DNA of 64,000 nucleotides, taken from contig JAQTTY010000007.1 of the NCBI GenBank assembly GCA_028710525.1, positions 62,001-126,000 of the forward strand. The letters are read 5' to 3'. Of this stretch, positions 56,962-64,000 are shown in pieces. The stretch comes from Gallionella sp. (GTDB lineage Bacteria; Pseudomonadota; Gammaproteobacteria; Burkholderiales; Gallionellaceae). Made by a program: the position numbers and the translations under genes. Every line of letters begins with the position of its first letter. Within the stretch, counting starts at the first letter, position 1. A model generated the notes under the pieces. That model did no database searches. It saw only the letters and a list, made by a program, of their open reading frames with translations, and was not told the origin of the DNA.

Positions 56962-59900
56962 TTAGAAGTCCCAACGGAAGCCAACCGAAAAATATTGCCT
57001 ATTAGTTTTTGAAGACTGCAGCGTACTGGGCGTCGAATTGGTCAACTCTATCCCGCCTTCTGTATCCAGCGTAAGGCTTTTACCCATGCGATATCCAAAT
57101 TTCACCACAGGTGCAAGGACTGACTGCTTACCGCCAAATTGATCCTTCTGCAGATACAGCCTCAACGTACTATCGAGGGTCAATTGATCGTGCAAATTGG
57201 AATGGTTGGTCAATAACAGCATCTGACCAGTCATCTGATGACTCTTGGTGTAACTCAAACTGGCAATAGAGATGTCATGATCAGTGATGAAGTCATTTCC
57301 TATCAATCTTCCAGAAAATGTCCAAGCTGCTCCAGTCGAAGGGGTAGCTGGAATAAATCCTTCCAACCCCGGCGTACCACCGACCAGCGTACTGCCGACT
57401 TGAACACCATTGATGATGGTGCCACTCTGAGGTAGACCGGATATGCTGGATACCGAAATATCGCCACCCGCTTGCCATTTCTCAGCGATACGTTTGTTGA
57501 CACCTAGCATCGCCAAAGTCGAACTTGCCGTACGTTGCTTTGCCAAATTCAACAAGTCGCTCTGCGTGAATCCGTTCTGCAGCAAGACATCGACACCATT
57601 CGTGGTACCCATGACAGAGTTGCGGATATCCAGCACGGGACTTCTGCGGCGATCTAACAAGAAGTTGTAATCCATCTCCTGTGCATCATCATGCAAAGTA
57701 CCTTGCAGGGTCGCCCAGTTCACTGCTCTAAATTTCGTGTCATAGTCCAACATCGCCATAGCAGTAGTGCCATGATCAAAGTAACGCATATTACCACCCA
57801 GCGCCTGACGTGAAGTCAACCCCTTCACAGTTTGCTTGATGACATATACCGAGCCACCCACGGCATCCTTGACACCCAAATCGACGCCCGTGCCAAAGAA
57901 CACTGGTTTTGGGCCTATCACTGCATCTGAGAGTCGACCAGCGACCACATTGACACGATAGTCTGGTGTCACGCCATACCCTGCAGTGGCACCATCAAAG
58001 CGACCGGTTACACCACCACCATAAGGAGACTGTCGCCCGACCCGAACTGAGTAGTCCTCTATCCGGTTGCGCACATCCATATAGAAAGCATTTAACTGCT
58101 GCGAACTTGGCTGTTGTGGCAAAAAGTTCGTTGCCCGAAACCCTTGAAAGACTAGACGATTATCGAATTCATTGTTATAGAAGCGATCCGTCATCATGAC
58201 GTTAGTTAACATCGTAGATTGGTCGGTGCGAGTTAAATTTGTTGGGATCGGTACTCCTGCAACATTGGTCACAGTGTTAACACTGCTGCGACCACGGTAG
58301 TAATAAGTCGATACGCTACCGTATTCCATATTTTTGAAATCCGTGCGTTGCGTTCTGACTGCCACAGTTTCCTGTTTAGGTAACGGTGGAAGGACAGCAC
58401 TCAACTTGGCATACCGGTCTTTCACCCACATTGCCGCAGTACCTTTAGGATAGAGCTTCAAATAGGTTTCATATTCAGACTGGGCTTTATAGGGCTGACC
58501 AGCTTTCTCACGTGCGATAGCTACCCATACTTGTGCATCTTCGGTGTAACGATTGGTCGCAAGTTTAAGTACATTATTGAATGAGTCTATTGCGGCGAAC
58601 ATATCACCAGACAAGATGGCATCACGGCCTTTCACCATCAGTCCCGCCGCTTTCATATCGGTATATTTTATTTGTTCAGCTAGTGTCAGCCCAGCAGGCA
58701 GTGGTGTATTTTCTACAACAGCCGTGTCATCAACATCAGGGAATTGCGGCAGCCCATCCTTACCACCCAGCTGCGCTTTGCCTTTAGTGCGAGCCGCCGA
58801 TTGTTTGATCACGGGTTTAACTACAGCCGAGGGTGGTAACTCTGGCGCTGGCTCAGATTTCGCAACTGGGGGCGGAGTTGTAACTACAGGTTCCGGTATT
58901 TTGGCCGCAGGTTCTGGCTCAGGCTGGGGTGTAGCTTCAGCAACCTTCGCGGGTGTTGGCTCAGCGACTGCAGTTTTTTTTGCAGGGGTCGGTATGGATA
59001 TCGGAAGCGAAGGTGCAGTGGCCACAATAGGTGCAGCAATAACCAAGGCGGGGACAATCGCAGCAGTTACGCCAGTAGTTTCAGCGGGTTTAACTGGTAC
59101 GGCTTTGAAGTGCAGAATTAGGCTGCGACCATCTTTACCTGCGACCAAAGCATATTCTGTAGCATGTTCAAACTGGATATCTATCTTGGGTTTCGATTCC
59201 AGATCTTTAGCAGTTGCGGTAAAGCCGGGTATGAGGTCTGAGCTTGGAGAGCGATAGACTGCAAAGTCCTTCCAAGGTGTATCACGTACTCTTTCCGGAA
59301 TATCGAAATAGACACTTAAACTGGACGCTGGGAGAGTCTGCTTAGCGACACGCAAACGCTGCACTGGCGCTGAAAATCTAAGAATTGCATCTGTGCCCTT
59401 ACTATTGTCAGTAGTGATACTGATGCCTTCGATCAGATCCGCATATGCTGGCTGTGCAGCGGGTTGTGGAGATACTGCAGCTGTAACCACAACCGGCGCA
59501 ATCACCTGCTGCTCACTTCCCTTGGACGGAATAACATCTGGCTTGATATGCAGTACCAAACTTCTACCGTCACGCCCCGCCTTTAAGGTGTAATCAGCCG
59601 CACGCGAAAACTGGACTTCCAATCGAGGGCTCATCGTCAGATCACGCATCGTGACGGTAAAGTCAGGTGCAACTTCCAATGGCGGCGAACGGTGTGTCTC
59701 GAAATCTTGCCATTGATCGTTCTGACCGCTCTCAAGAACATTGAAATATACGACCAGAAAGGTGGATGATTTATTCTGCTGGGAATAACGCAAATGTTGT
59801 ATGGGCACAGTGAACTTGATGACTGCATCAAGCTCACCATTAGCATCTGTCTTAACCGCGATATCTCCGATCAAATCCGCCTGCGCATACCCTGGCAACA

Positions 59901-59970
59901 AGATTAACAGCGCGAGTGCACAACAGAGCTGTACTACCCCCCTTACTCCCCTAACCAGCGTTCTATGCAT
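56962..59970 (-). CDS. Outer-membrane barrel with duplicated N-terminal domains (porin of the multihaem cluster)
   Basis: 1002 residues. A signal peptide (ending GYAQA) is followed by two copies of a roughly 110-residue beta domain (about 33-143 and 177-290), each with the pattern FxxPxQxLRxxxQ and FDIPE/FNVLE phrases. Next come a Pro/Ala-rich linker (about 300-395) and TPR-like helices (about 430-525). The barrel runs from about 555 to the end, and its last strand finishes YFSVGFRWDF with a C-terminal Phe, the classic outer-membrane assembly signal. SD AAAGAGG precedes the start. As the third gene of the multihaem unit it should be the porin that sheathes or positions a cytochrome (inference). 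Confidence 0.82.
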   Translation of the reverse strand: MHRTLVRGVRGVVQLCCALALLILLPGYAQADLIGDIAVKTDANGELDAVIKFTVPIQHLRYSQQNKSSTFLVVYFNVLESGQNDQWQDFETHRSPPLEVAPDFTVTMRDLTMSPRLEVQFSRAADYTLKAGRDGRSLVLHIKPDVIPSKGSEQQVIAPVVVTAAVSPQPAAQPAYADLIEGISITTDNSKGTDAILRFSAPVQRLRVAKQTLPASSLSVYFDIPERVRDTPWKDFAVYRSPSSDLIPGFTATAKDLESKPKIDIQFEHATEYALVAGKDGRSLILHFKAVPVKPAETTGVTAAIVPALVIAAPIVATAPSLPISIPTPAKKTAVAEPTPAKVAEATPQPEPEPAAKIPEPVVTTPPPVAKSEPAPELPPSAVVKPVIKQSAARTKGKAQLGGKDGLPQFPDVDDTAVVENTPLPAGLTLAEQIKYTDMKAAGLMVKGRDAILSGDMFAAIDSFNNVLKLATNRYTEDAQVWVAIAREKAGQPYKAQSEYETYLKLYPKGTAAMWVKDRYAKLSAVLPPLPKQETVAVRTQRTDFKNMEYGSVSTYYYRGRSSVNTVTNVAGVPIPTNLTRTDQSTMLTNVMMTDRFYNNEFDNRLVFQGFRATNFLPQQPSSQQLNAFYMDVRNRIEDYSVRVGRQSPYGGGVTGRFDGATAGYGVTPDYRVNVVAGRLSDAVIGPKPVFFGTGVDLGVKDAVGGSVYVIKQTVKGLTSRQALGGNMRYFDHGTTAMAMLDYDTKFRAVNWATLQGTLHDDAQEMDYNFLLDRRRSPVLDIRNSVMGTTNGVDVLLQNGFTQSDLLNLAKQRTASSTLAMLGVNKRIAEKWQAGGDISVSSISGLPQSGTIINGVQVGSTLVGGTPGLEGFIPATPSTGAAWTFSGRLIGNDFITDHDISIASLSYTKSHQMTGQMLLLTNHSNLHDQLTLDSTLRLYLQKDQFGGKQSVLAPVVKFGYRMGKSLTLDTEGGIELTNSTPSTLQSSKTNRQYFSVGFRWDF

Positions 59971-60014
59971 ATGCCTCTTTCAAGTTTCACCCATAAAGTG
60001 AACTGAGTTTATTC

Positions 60015-61955
60015 TTAGTTCCAGCGAGAATACGCCGTACCTTTCTTGCCTAAAGGTTTGTGACAACTTGAGCTGGAACAATCTTTTGCCGCACTCGCGC
60101 CTTCGTGACTCTTTTTCTGCATCGCCCCCATATAGGTGACGCCACTCAGGTGACAAGTCACACAATAATTTGGCGCCCCACCTTGAGCATTATTGTGATT
60201 CATCTGGTTTTTCGTCGTAGCCCAACCAGAGGGGCCAGCAATGGCCATGAAACCGTTCTTATGACAAGTATTACAATCCAAAGTACCAGTAATAGTTGTT
60301 GGAATATGGTTGCTGACCTTGCCTACCGCACCACCCAGATTTACCCCCTGAGTCGCATAAGCACCGCTGTGGCAAACATCGCAACGCGTTGCTGCCATCA
60401 CGGCATGCTGTGCAGCGTCCATATGTCCAGGTGCGAAAGTCACCGCGGCATCGACAGCATGACAGCCGCCAGTATCGCAAGACATTGAACCTACAGGAAT
60501 ATGTCCGGGATTGCGTCCCTTGGCAGTAATGCCATCATGACAAACTTGGCATCTACCGGCTGCGGGAGGAACCAGTGCCGCATGATTCACTCCACTTGCG
60601 CCCAACCATGACAACGTATTGATAGAGTTGGTGTGGCATGAATCACAAGCCATCGAAGTTACCAGATGCGTTTGAGGCATGCCCTTAGCCTTGATGCCGT
60701 TATGGCAGTTCGCACAGGGCGCTGGATATCCAACCATAGCATTATGATTGATAGCAGCTCCCAACCAACTCAAAGTATTCAATGAGGTGGTGTGACATGA
60801 GTCACACGTTGTCGTAGCCCTATTAATCACCGCATGAGTTGCACCATAGGTCTTGGCAGTAGAGCCGTTGTGACAAGTACCACAGGCATTCGCACCTGTA
60901 GGTGATCCACTGGGGCTCACTACGCCCGCAGGGTGGTTAAATGTTGCGCCCATGAATGTACTGTAGTTACCCGTATTCGCTGCCGTATGGCAAGTATCAC
61001 ATTGAGGCGTAGGTGGAGGCACAATTGAGTTATGGCTAGGCAAGAAAGAGGTCCCTAACACTCCTGGATACGCACCGTTATGACAAGTCGAACAGACACC
61101 CACAGGAGATGGTGCGGCGGGCCCTGAATTCCTGTGATAGATAGCACCTAGGAATGAGGTATAGCCAGCAGTATTGGCAGAGGTATGGCAGGCATCACAT
61201 GCAATCCCTGCAGTAAACGTCGGGATATGCAGAGCTGGCTTGGCTTTAACACCAGATTGCACGCCATGACAACTTCCACAAACTCCTGCGACGGTTCCAC
61301 TATGGCTGAAAGTCGCTCCCAAGAAAGTCGTGGTGTTGTGACAGGCGCCACAGTCCAAACCATTAGTCGCAATATGCGCCGCCGGCTGGCTCACTACCTT
61401 AGGAGATTGACCACCATGACAATTTGCACATCCACTGGTGATGCCAGTGTGATCCATACGTGCGCTAAGGAAAGTACTGGTGTTGATATGGCAATTCTCG
61501 CAAGGCATAAAGGTCGTTATATGCGTTGCGCGATTGATCTTCACCACACCTAAAGATTGGTTAGCTGTGTCGCTATGGCAGCTTGCGCAGCCGTTGACGA
61601 TACCAAAGTGTTGAAAGCTCTTGACTAGAAAACTGGTGGGACTGACGTGACAGGTATCACAGGAAAAAGTGGTTTGCACATGATTGATCGGCTTAGGCGT
61701 AGCTCCTACCCGACTACCTAGAGTGTGACAACCTGCACACTCTTTGGGCGTCCCCTTGAAGATACCGCCCACGTGGCATTGCTCGCACTTTAAAGTCGTA
61801 TGTACATCTCTCAATACGAATCCGGTCTGAGTATGATTGAATGGCTCGCTTCCAATAGGCGTTTCAGTGGCGGCCTGGACAATTGATGAAGTACTCATCA
61901 CGCCGAGCAGGATAGACAACACTAGGGTTGCAGCCTTATTGACGAACTGGCACAT
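60015..61955 (-). CDS. Multihaem cytochrome c, about 21 haem sites
   Basis: 646 residues with a signal peptide (MCQFVNKAATLVLSILLGVMSTSSIVQA) and 19 CXXCH motifs plus two CX4CH motifs (CDTGGCH and CSSSSCH). If both are loaded, 21 haems are covalently attached. The spacing is fairly even, with repeated phrases such as NHxxxVxxPxxCANCHNGxxAKG and TSLNTLSWLGA between haems. Rich in Gly, Ala, Ser, Thr and poor in charge, it is unlike its Lys-rich neighbour, which suggests a different location, perhaps at or outside the outer membrane (inference). SD AAGGAGATTGAA precedes the ATG. It is 44 bases before the porin gene. Confidence 0.88.
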   Translation of the reverse strand: MCQFVNKAATLVLSILLGVMSTSSIVQAATETPIGSEPFNHTQTGFVLRDVHTTLKCEQCHVGGIFKGTPKECAGCHTLGSRVGATPKPINHVQTTFSCDTCHVSPTSFLVKSFQHFGIVNGCASCHSDTANQSLGVVKINRATHITTFMPCENCHINTSTFLSARMDHTGITSGCANCHGGQSPKVVSQPAAHIATNGLDCGACHNTTTFLGATFSHSGTVAGVCGSCHGVQSGVKAKPALHIPTFTAGIACDACHTSANTAGYTSFLGAIYHRNSGPAAPSPVGVCSTCHNGAYPGVLGTSFLPSHNSIVPPPTPQCDTCHTAANTGNYSTFMGATFNHPAGVVSPSGSPTGANACGTCHNGSTAKTYGATHAVINRATTTCDSCHTTSLNTLSWLGAAINHNAMVGYPAPCANCHNGIKAKGMPQTHLVTSMACDSCHTNSINTLSWLGASGVNHAALVPPAAGRCQVCHDGITAKGRNPGHIPVGSMSCDTGGCHAVDAAVTFAPGHMDAAQHAVMAATRCDVCHSGAYATQGVNLGGAVGKVSNHIPTTITGTLDCNTCHKNGFMAIAGPSGWATTKNQMNHNNAQGGAPNYCVTCHLSGVTYMGAMQKKSHEGASAAKDCSSSSCHKPLGKKGTAYSRWN

Positions 61956-62144
61956 TTCAATCTCCTTTAAATCAAATGCCCCAAGCCAAAACCAACTTAC
62001 ACGTAGAGCGAATGCTCAGCAGTGTAAGCAGAAAACTGTTCCTTTAGTAGTGCCGACTATCGGTAATCGCCATTCAATACTGAGTGGTAATAATTGCCGA
62101 CGAACGTTCAGAATCACCGACCAGCGGTAAAACTAAAACGCTCA

Positions 62145-63908
62145 TTACTTTTTCCAGCTCTGACTCCCAACTTTGATTCTTTTCCAAGATGTACCAATAT
62201 GGCAGCGCTCGCATTGAATGCCAAATGCACCATCATGCTTATCGTCTTTACTGTGGCAACGCATACAACTGCTGGCGAGCATGACTTTACCTAGCACTGG
62301 CGTGTTGTGGCAATCGATACAGCGCAGTTCCTTATGTTTACCGTCTAACTTGAACTTAGTCTTGTCATGATCAAAATCCCAATCCTTCCAATTTCTAGTG
62401 TTATGACAACTACCACATTCAATTCCCAAAGTGCGTTTGTGCACATCTTGCTTTTGGTGGCACAAACCACATTCAGACTTAGCATCCTTATAGGTAGGCG
62501 CTAGATGGCACTTCTTACACTCGGTTACGGTATGCCGTCCCGTAAGTTGGAAGCTTGACATGCGATGATCGAAATCGGTCTTATTCCATGACTGCTCATG
62601 ATGACAAGACTCACACTTCTTACCTTCCTGCCCTTTGTGCTTATCATCCTTCTCATGACAAGAGTAACAATCCGACTTCAACTTATCCTTATACAAGTCA
62701 CCCTTATGGCAACTGACACACTTCACCTCATGATGCTTACCTAATAACGGGTATTTTGTCTTCTTATCATGATCGAACACGATCTCTTTCCAACTACGAT
62801 CGACGTGACATGTCTCGCATTTGGGACCAAAACTCCCCTTATGCTTATCATCTTTTTGGTGGCATGACAGGCAATCCATCTTGAGCTTATCTGTATAGAG
62901 ATCCCCTTTATGACAGGCGACGCACTTCACGTCATGGTGTTTACCAGTCAGCGGGAATTTGGTCTTCTTGTCGTGATCAAAAGGTATCTCCTTCCAGCCT
63001 CGTTCAACGTGGCAACTCTCACACTTGACGCCAAATTTCCCCTTATGTTTATCATCCTTTTTGTGGCATGAAAAACAATCCATCTTAAGTTTTTCTTTGT
63101 ACAAATCGCCCTTATGACAACTGACGCATTTCACTTCATGATGTTTACCCAACAATGGATATTTAGTCTTTTTATCATGTTCAAAAAGAATCTCTTTCCA
63201 ACCTCTATCGGTGTGGCAAGTCTCGCACTTAGGCCCAAAACTGCCTTTATGCTTATCTTCTTTCTTGTGACAAGAGTTACAGTCTTTAGGCGTTTCCTTA
63301 TAGTTGTTATTGATATGGCACTTGGTACATTTGACATCTACATGCTTACCCAATAACGGAAAGTGGGTCTTGCTGTGATCAAAATGCGTGGTCTTCCAGT
63401 CCTTTTCCTCATGGCAATTCTCACAATCTTTACCTAAGCTACCCTTGTGCTTGTCGGCGCGTTCATGACAGCCTATGCACTTGATTGGAGCTTCACGATA
63501 TTTTTTTTGCGGGAAATGACAGTCCTTGCAAAGGACCTTTTCTTTGAGATGGCCGCCCTTAAGTAGGAAGCCTGTAGTCGCATGATCGAAACCGGAAGTT
63601 TGTATCTTGGCGATCTTAGCTTCACGACCTTTGTGTTCAGAGTGGCACTCCTTGCACTCTTTATCCTGCTTCATCAAACCGTGGTAGCCGCGCTTAAGAC
63701 TGATGTCCTTATTGACGTCCTTGTGACAATCTTTGCAAAGCCCCGATTGGGCTAATTTATCAAACTGCTTGTGGCAGTTAGCACAGTCACTTTCATACTT
63801 GGCATGCCCCTCTATTACCTTGCCTGGCATCAATAGGTCATTGATAGAATCAGCGCGAGCCTGCGTAGTGCAGACCATAATCGCCAGACACATCAATACT
63901 CTTATCAT
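62145..63908 (-). CDS. Multihaem cytochrome c, 24 haem sites, triple-haem repeats
   Basis: Start at ATG 63908 (MIRVLMCLAIMVCTTQARA, a signal peptide); an ATG 20 codons upstream is possible. 24 CXXCH motifs are arranged in triads. A 68-residue unit (CETCHxDRxWKEI, FDHDKKTKYPLLGKHHEVKCVSCHKGDLY, then DCxSCHxKDDKHKG) recurs about six times with few changes. It is very Lys- and His-rich, and each unit supplies extra His for bis-His ligation. This is the cytochrome c3/c7-like organisation of a molecular wire. In relatives, similar long Lys-rich cytochromes are thought to span the periplasm. It opens the visible cluster; the upstream neighbour lies outside the window. Confidence 0.9.
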   Translation of the reverse strand: MIRVLMCLAIMVCTTQARADSINDLLMPGKVIEGHAKYESDCANCHKQFDKLAQSGLCKDCHKDVNKDISLKRGYHGLMKQDKECKECHSEHKGREAKIAKIQTSGFDHATTGFLLKGGHLKEKVLCKDCHFPQKKYREAPIKCIGCHERADKHKGSLGKDCENCHEEKDWKTTHFDHSKTHFPLLGKHVDVKCTKCHINNNYKETPKDCNSCHKKEDKHKGSFGPKCETCHTDRGWKEILFEHDKKTKYPLLGKHHEVKCVSCHKGDLYKEKLKMDCFSCHKKDDKHKGKFGVKCESCHVERGWKEIPFDHDKKTKFPLTGKHHDVKCVACHKGDLYTDKLKMDCLSCHQKDDKHKGSFGPKCETCHVDRSWKEIVFDHDKKTKYPLLGKHHEVKCVSCHKGDLYKDKLKSDCYSCHEKDDKHKGQEGKKCESCHHEQSWNKTDFDHRMSSFQLTGRHTVTECKKCHLAPTYKDAKSECGLCHQKQDVHKRTLGIECGSCHNTRNWKDWDFDHDKTKFKLDGKHKELRCIDCHNTPVLGKVMLASSCMRCHSKDDKHDGAFGIQCERCHIGTSWKRIKVGSQSWKK

Positions 63909-64000
63909 TGCAGTTAGATATGAAATAATCGTGCCCCCTAATACATGTGCACCGCAACTACATGCCATACACCACTGAACACGAGCATGTAAACGAATGG

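Follow-up and report, generated by a model that had tools for sequence, protein, structure and literature searches.

Which way electrons run through the third type of porin-cytochrome cluster (PCC3) has been a question since 2017, as has the cluster's role, and PCC3 commonly figures, unproven, among the candidate iron oxidases. The question bears on a locus at the end of a 64,000-nucleotide window of Gallionella sp. DNA (C11:62001-126000 of the 2.83-Mb genome G000, assembly GCA_028710525.1), where two multihaem cytochromes (MHCs) and an outer-membrane porin are encoded consecutively. By its gene content and motifs the locus is a complete PCC3 cluster, of a kind known since 2017; new is a linked gene for a fifth conserved protein, here called FDR, which tracks the PCC3 inner-membrane protein (IMP) genome by genome. 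The linkage points to NAD(P)H, in place of quinone or alongside it, as the inner partner of PCC3, and to a possible export of electrons.

A complete PCC3 cluster with a fifth gene

The three genes named in a preliminary description of the window are all present on the minus strand, transcribed in the order 24-haem MHC, 21-haem MHC, porin, with intergenic gaps among them of 44 and 189 nt. The sequence past position 64000, where that description proposed to compare gene order, supplies the fourth PCC3 gene: the IMP gene terminates within the final 63 bases of the window with the rest past its end, and the FDR gene, divergent from it, lies beyond, so that both were outside the view of the earlier description. 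The features are as follows.

56962 to 59970, minus strand: PCC3 porin, 1002 amino acids (aa) (AlphaFold2, Foldseek, domain duplication, family alignment)
60015 to 61955, minus strand: extracellular-type MHC, 646 aa, with 19 CXXCH and 2 CX4CH motifs (motifs, relatives, composition)
62145 to 63908, minus strand: periplasmic-type MHC, 587 aa, with 24 CXXCH motifs (motifs, repeats; the alternative start at 63968 gives 607 aa)
63938 to 64000, minus strand: 3' end of the PCC3 IMP gene, 309 aa, whole gene at C11:125938-126867 (L002:9938-10867)
C11:126997-128301 (L002:10997-12301), plus strand, outside the window: FDR, 434 aa (domains, conserved motifs, co-occurrence)

The published IMP signature is a protein of ~300 aa with two WX3HX13H motifs, SGXXG and five transmembrane helices (He et al. 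2017, PMC5566968). The IMP here carries W92-H96-H110 and W284-H288-H302 (WX3HX13H twice) and S141-G145 (SGXXG), and it completes the set of four PCC3 genes: a porin barrel, an MHC rich in Thr, Ser, Ala and Gly (T/S/A/G), a periplasmic-type MHC in the range of ~21 to 27 haems, and an IMP with its motifs. The earlier suggestion of a third-type porin-cytochrome cluster is thus borne out by the defining fourth gene. The count of five helices is the less certain point: hydropathy alone calls four in the IMP, missing helix 3, but all five are present in an AlphaFold2 model of a relative (L100, 65% identical to the window's IMP, mean pLDDT 79). L100, in place of the window's own IMP, also heads the IMP alignment (A3) of 71 complete open reading frames (ORFs) of 286 to 344 aa from 80 loci.

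The order IMP, periplasmic-type MHC, extracellular-type MHC, porin is kept in most relatives with enough sequence, both from Gallionellaceae and from other groups, the exceptions being L163 (rearranged) and G216 (a split locus). The PCC3 clusters of strain ES-1 (Slit_0867-0870 and Slit_1446-1449) share the four components, the IMP motifs and the gene order, with haem numbers here within the published range. The locus differs from PCC3 as published, for which the available text gives four genes and does not mention FDR, by the linked fifth gene. MtrCAB, MtoAB and PioAB likewise span the outer membrane with a porin and multihaem cytochromes, but the window genes fall outside that group: the porin has no MtrB/PioB-family (TIGR03509) match, and matches of the two MHCs to the DmsE-family decahaem model (TIGR03508) are partial, with 55 and 16 bits against a cut-off of 192.

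FDR combines ferredoxin-like motifs with a flavin reductase domain

FDR begins with a hydrophobic helix, and a pair of ferredoxin-like motifs and then a Pyr_redox domain come after it; Arg/His-rich residues next to the helix point to a cytoplasmic body. The six cluster Cys are invariant in all 65 aligned sequences. At the usual second-Cys position the first motif has Ser in 46, Ala in 17 and Cys in 2 of these, and the second has His in 65/65. Mycobacterial ferredoxins with CXX?XXC(X)nCP motifs carry [3Fe-4S] or [4Fe-4S] clusters, and measured [3Fe-4S] ferredoxins range from -340 to +230 mV, those of the His and Asn types having the higher potentials (PMC6237146).

Two Pyr_redox-type Rossmann nucleotide motifs, GxGPxG (G175, G177, P178, G180) and GGGDxA (G326-D329, A331), are likewise conserved in 65/65 sequences, and the match to PF13738 exceeds its cut-off. 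The reductase domain is nearest to Bdr/YpdA and ferredoxin-NADP reductase (FNR) structures (best PDB 7a76, E 1.9e-27, and 7a7b, E 7.2e-27), with which it shares the FAD and NAD(P) domain; FDR has in addition the membrane helix and the two three-Cys ferredoxin motifs. This domain of the window's FDR contains just two Cys, 336 and 410, and lacks a CxxC redox pair. R351 and K359, past the second Rossmann motif, are invariant in the 65 sequences and, by analogy with NADPH-binding reductases, suggest NADPH as the nucleotide. Against NCBIfam, the best 25 of 181 families are all below their curated cut-offs.

The available PCC3 literature names no flavoprotein or ferredoxin as a neighbour, leaving room for an unremarked figure arrow or other papers, and the word 'ferredoxin' occurs 0 times in PMC5566968. 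According to the same paper, an additional redox protein is frequent in MHC-IMP clusters of other kinds and in PCC4. PMC10734462 tabulates a 4Fe-4S ferredoxin cluster for 41 iron oxidisers without linking it to PCC3.

FDR follows the IMP from genome to genome

Among the 300 genomes of the order sample, 16 carry an IMP (E <= 3e-29) and the identical 16 carry FDR (E <= 1e-40), compared with 0/284 of the others. FDR is divergent and <0.5 kb from the IMP in 15 of the 16 and lies on the porin side in G264. Adding strong porin matches brings in just one genome, G170, which has no IMP or FDR match and is 85% complete with the porin on a 4.9-kb contig. In the phylum sample (398 genomes) a strong IMP is found in 6 and FDR in the identical 6, together with a weak partial FDR match in G306, which spans only residues 119-426 at 34% identity (E 3.4e-42) and was excluded from the counts. 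Also excluded were genomes with weak IMP matches (ten at E 1.3e-9 to 6.4e-4 among the 300, and 28 at E 4.9e-19 to 6.7e-7 among the 398) and a short porin match of G010 (E 2.9e-4) in a stretch without PCC3. The family sample (140 genomes) has both genes in 58, FDR only in 4, IMP only in 1 and neither in 77. In the phylum sample FDR is not always close by: in G340 it sits on a different contig next to a porin-like ORF, in G638 it is likewise on a different contig, and in G442 it is 4.6 kb from the IMP.

At the level of loci, FDR is present in 65 of 80 named IMP loci, with 59 divergent and adjacent and 2 divergent at 1.3 kb. The remaining four comprise two adjacent cases (L106 and L148, sorted as 'other' because the ORF starts overlap, with FDR on the opposite strand next to the IMP) and two with FDR elsewhere in the stretch (L161, and L163 from Nitrospira, where it is at the porin side). 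By contig prefix the 15 loci lacking FDR, two of which had <1.5 kb of upstream sequence, come from 12 genomes, and 11 of these carry FDR elsewhere, the exception being the genome of L092. In at least four of the 11, FDR is next to another IMP locus of the assembly (L093/L124, L094/L133, L095/L115, L125/L132). Of two closed genomes, G730 has FDR 0.8 Mb from PCC3, and G723, with two PCC3 clusters, has one unlinked FDR gene among its two.

Blind clustering of neighbouring ORFs over 81 loci recovers the IMP in 80, MHC in 74, FDR in 66 and porin in 49, with the next family in 15; that FDR outranks the porin is in part an effect of contig ends, since many contigs stop short of the porin gene. Between the distances of the IMP and those of FDR the rank correlation is 0.90 (rho, 40 loci), the highest of six pairs (others 0.52 to 0.80), in a comparison uncontrolled for the species tree.

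Shared regulation of the IMP and FDR genes was considered and rejected. In 60 intergenic regions, each with 60 nt of both genes, sites resembling the consensus sequences are near shuffle level for Fur, Rex and ArcA, and sites like those of the regulator FNR (<=1 mismatch) occur in 4/60 compared with 0.8 expected from shuffles; three of the four are at one offset and so do not indicate a general motif.

Two cytochromes of contrasting composition

The preliminary description counted about 45 haems in two consecutive genes, and this agrees with 24 plus 21 motifs, the count of 21 being reached because two atypical CX4CH motifs (residues 493 and 626) are added to 19 CXXCH. In 2,000 shuffles of each protein, CXXCH has a mean of 0.38 and a maximum of 5 for the 24-haem protein (24 observed), and a mean of 0.19 and a maximum of 2 for the 21-haem protein (19 observed). 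Position 63908 is an internal ATG at which the signal peptide of the 24-haem MHC begins, and a start at 63968 would make the ORF overlap with the 3' end of the gene for the IMP. The 24-haem gene contains direct repeats spaced 198 to 204 nt apart. A sequence search of solved structures with both cytochromes gave weak matches only (E 0.018 or worse).

The two proteins had been contrasted as Lys-rich and neutral. The contrast holds for charge density, with K+R+D+E making up 33.6% of the 24-haem MHC and 8.5% of the 21-haem MHC, but not for pI (8.9 and 8.4). Lys residues number 101 in the former (607-aa reading) and 23 in the latter, which is 42% T/S/A/G, and the family follows suit, with a median Lys content of 16.6% in 66 periplasmic-type ORFs and 4.2% in 54 extracellular-type ORFs. 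CXXCH motifs of the periplasmic type number 24, 21 or 27 in 61 of the 66. In the published PCC3 assignment the T/S/A/G-rich MHC is the extracellular one (PMC5566968), and the separate compartments proposed earlier for the two cytochromes match both this rule and the family composition, as far as composition can tell. Much larger extracellular-type cytochromes are found in two relatives, each with a periplasmic-type partner of 24: 54 (+5 variant) haem motifs at L042:1716-8864 and 62 (+1) at L039:8673-13736.

The porin is modelled as a 22-strand barrel

An AlphaFold2 model of the porin made with 43 sequences (alignment A2: the window's porin plus 42 relatives from a list of 44, without L137 and L171) has a mean pLDDT of 77 and a pTM of 0.52. 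Its C-terminal half is predicted to form a barrel of 22 strands of at least 7 residues (residues 546-1001), mostly at pLDDT >=90 (36 of 47 ten-residue blocks from 541 onward). The preliminary description named the absence of a C-terminal barrel as grounds for refutation, and the model contains one. The Foldseek matches listed are outer-membrane barrels, headed by the FimD usher (E 6e-10), with low TM-scores (0.13 to 0.23 by query, at most 0.50 by target) that thus show a large barrel and not a homologue.

A signal peptide is followed by two beta domains modelled at lower confidence (34-142, with stretches at pLDDT <50, and 180-288), a low-confidence linker (293-396) and five TPR-like helices (430-526), for which BamD and TPR matches are weak and below cut-off. 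The periplasmic domains and TPR helices anticipated for this 1002-residue protein are thus all modelled; they would sit in the periplasm and probably dock the cytochrome wire or peptidoglycan. The beta domains are 42.6% identical to one another and presumably AMIN-like, with no match from Pfam. A profile built on the two domains and run over 52 porin ORFs finds one copy in 46, two in the window's porin only, and none in five; the duplication thus sets this porin apart from other PCC3 porins. For three of the five (L137, L152, L171) a separate short ORF of 153 to 179 aa precedes the barrel ORF, and these short ORFs are counted among the 46.

Proposed electron path and its alternatives

The locus is proposed to encode a complete trans-envelope electron conduit that is poised with NAD(P)H and able to export electrons, a reading to which a probability of about 50% is given and which is favoured over a dedicated Fe(II) oxidase feeding quinones only. 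The observations beneath it are gene content, motifs, the modelled barrel fold and the FDR-IMP linkage across genomes. On the cytoplasmic side, FDR would pass electrons from NAD(P)H through FAD and two unusual Fe-S clusters to the IMP, where two b-haems would be held between transmembrane helices 3 and 5, the inner putatively by H96/H288 and the outer by H110/H302. The IMP N-terminus and helix 2-3 loop carry positive charges and would thus be inside, and the alternation of five helices would put the helix 4-5 stretch of 130 residues there as well, although its charge is close to neutral (19 K+R, 18 D+E) and helix 3 escapes the hydropathy call. FDR would then meet the inner haem and the Lys-rich MHC the outer, and electrons would continue through the 24-haem cytochrome in the periplasm to the 21-haem cytochrome in or on the ~22-strand barrel and from there to an extracellular redox partner. 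Haem binding, localisation, each transfer step and the direct feeding or draining of the IMP by FDR are predictions of this scheme. Energetically, electrons leaving NAD(P)H for the outside would go downhill, and electrons coming in to NADP+ uphill. One version, in which PCC3 is a five-component system with FDR driving cytoplasmic electrons outward through the IMP b-haems and ~45 c-haems, is put forward tentatively and is doubtful.

The scheme would work like the NADPH oxidase/ferric reductase family (NOX, FRE), with HX13H pairs on two transmembrane helices, two b-haems, and FAD and NAD(P)H at the cytoplasmic face. In NOX the flavin domain is fused and of a different kind; here the flavin part is a separate protein of a Bdr/FNR-like fold family with Fe-S motifs. 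The comparison of the IMP motifs with the NADPH oxidase family is that of He et al. (PMC5566968). A further difference is that the IMP has no Pfam match, hence no FRD domain (PF01794), and no PDB fold match at E <= 0.001.

Several points weigh against an NAD(P)H-poised conduit. A NOX-like or bc1-like fold for the IMP lacks structural support, a Foldseek search with the L100 model having given no PDB match at E <= 0.001; the best match in a sequence-profile search was only E 0.22. FDR is transcribed divergently from the IMP and the linkage is not universal: one of 59 IMP genomes in the family sample lacks FDR (G754, 92% complete), and 4 of 62 FDR genomes lack the IMP, three of them 69 to 82% complete and G695 99% complete. 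Several genomes hold more IMP than FDR genes (three and one in G742). Candidates scored per genome were capped in each search (for FDR at 5, 4 and 12 in the order, phylum and family samples), the samples overlap (G000, G024 and others), and the counts ignore shared descent. The IMP from the second PCC3 copy (copy 2) of Sideroxydans CL21 rises in cells able to oxidise iron (PMC12442390), which fits electron uptake.

Quinone-linked Fe(II) oxidation, in which electrons from Fe(II) or a mineral pass through the 21-haem and 24-haem cytochromes and the IMP to the quinone pool with FDR an off-path accessory, is the course drawn in the 2017 model, which leads electrons from the IMP to quinone (PMC5566968). 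The presence of PCC3 in many Gallionellaceae iron oxidisers (PMC10734462) and the rise of the CL21 IMP agree with it. It leaves unexplained, however, why FDR is retained with the IMP in nearly all sampled PCC3 genomes, unlinked cases included, and the host already holds MtoA and MtoB above family cut-offs. In ES-1, moreover, both PCC3 clusters are down-regulated with Fe(II) (PMC8788666). This explanation is unlikely. Expression data as a whole point both ways: beside the ES-1 decrease and the CL21 rise, a table of apparent percentiles places the ES-1 PCC3 proteins at 0 to 63 compared with 99 for Cyc2_1 (PMC12016527). If FDR instead serves in maturation, repair or poising, for instance by keeping b-haems or cytochromes reduced for assembly, and is not a respiratory partner, its divergent transcription would be accounted for, as would a single FDR where IMP genes number two or three (G742, G748, G751). 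The reductase domain of the window's FDR, without a CxxC redox pair, speaks against such a role, and two Fe-S motifs with a membrane anchor would better suit electron transfer to a membrane partner. This role is improbable.

The FDR-IMP linkage applies equally to uptake, in which extracellular electrons would pass inward via the IMP to FDR and reduce NADP+ as a supply for CO2 fixation. NADPH is required by autotrophic hosts, and conduits built of multihaem proteins can work in both directions. The step from the potential of Fe(II) to NADP+ would be uphill and opposed by the membrane potential. Reversibility is stated for Mto/Mtr in PMC10734462, but three-Cys clusters of the His type tend toward high potentials (PMC6237146), and net uptake into NADP+ is quite improbable.

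In the five-component version PCC3 would act like a split, envelope-spanning NADPH oxidase or extracellular reductase, serving as an export valve in bacteria known for electron uptake. Were NAD(P)H at its inner end, PCC3 alone should not count as a marker of Fe(II) oxidation, and its records in Thiobacillus, Methylococcaceae, Nitrospira and others would be easier to understand. A suggestion from 2019 is that putative porin-cytochrome clusters might allow methylotrophs to use electron acceptors outside the cell (PMC6344600). FDR, with its predictable activity, gives the PCC3 electron path a direct test.

Host surroundings and unusual relatives

The host's Mto locus is on another contig (C1, L222:5326-11275), with an MtoA-type match of 291 bits and an MtoB-type match of 480 bits, both above cut-off. 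Upstream of the pair are a protein with one haem motif and a 681-aa protein in which 8 CXXCH (+1 variant) are fused to a part resembling formate-dehydrogenase-gamma cytochrome b (below cut-off).

Past PCC3 and FDR, type II secretion genes run from L002:13235-18716 onward (GspG and GspL by Pfam, the others by eye) and may offer an exit route for the surface cytochrome. They went unrecognised in the 25 largest families of neighbours across loci, which were not annotated individually, and are not counted in the PCC3 system. Between FDR and the gsp genes, L002:12341-13066 codes for a 241-aa protein, assigned to no family, with a signal-peptide-like start and very weak similarity to an OB fold.

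PCC3-type IMP genes (47% identical) are also found at L135 and L136; within ~10 kb either side no cytochrome, porin or FDR is recognised, and their assemblies hold another PCC3 IMP locus. L162, with a PCC3-type IMP, FDR and a porin-like fragment, is on a contig of a Klebsiella pneumoniae metagenome-assembled genome that is probably a mislabelled bin. The rearranged PCC3 at L163, with FDR on the porin side, comes from a Nitrospira sp. metagenome-assembled genome and may indicate transfer between phyla.

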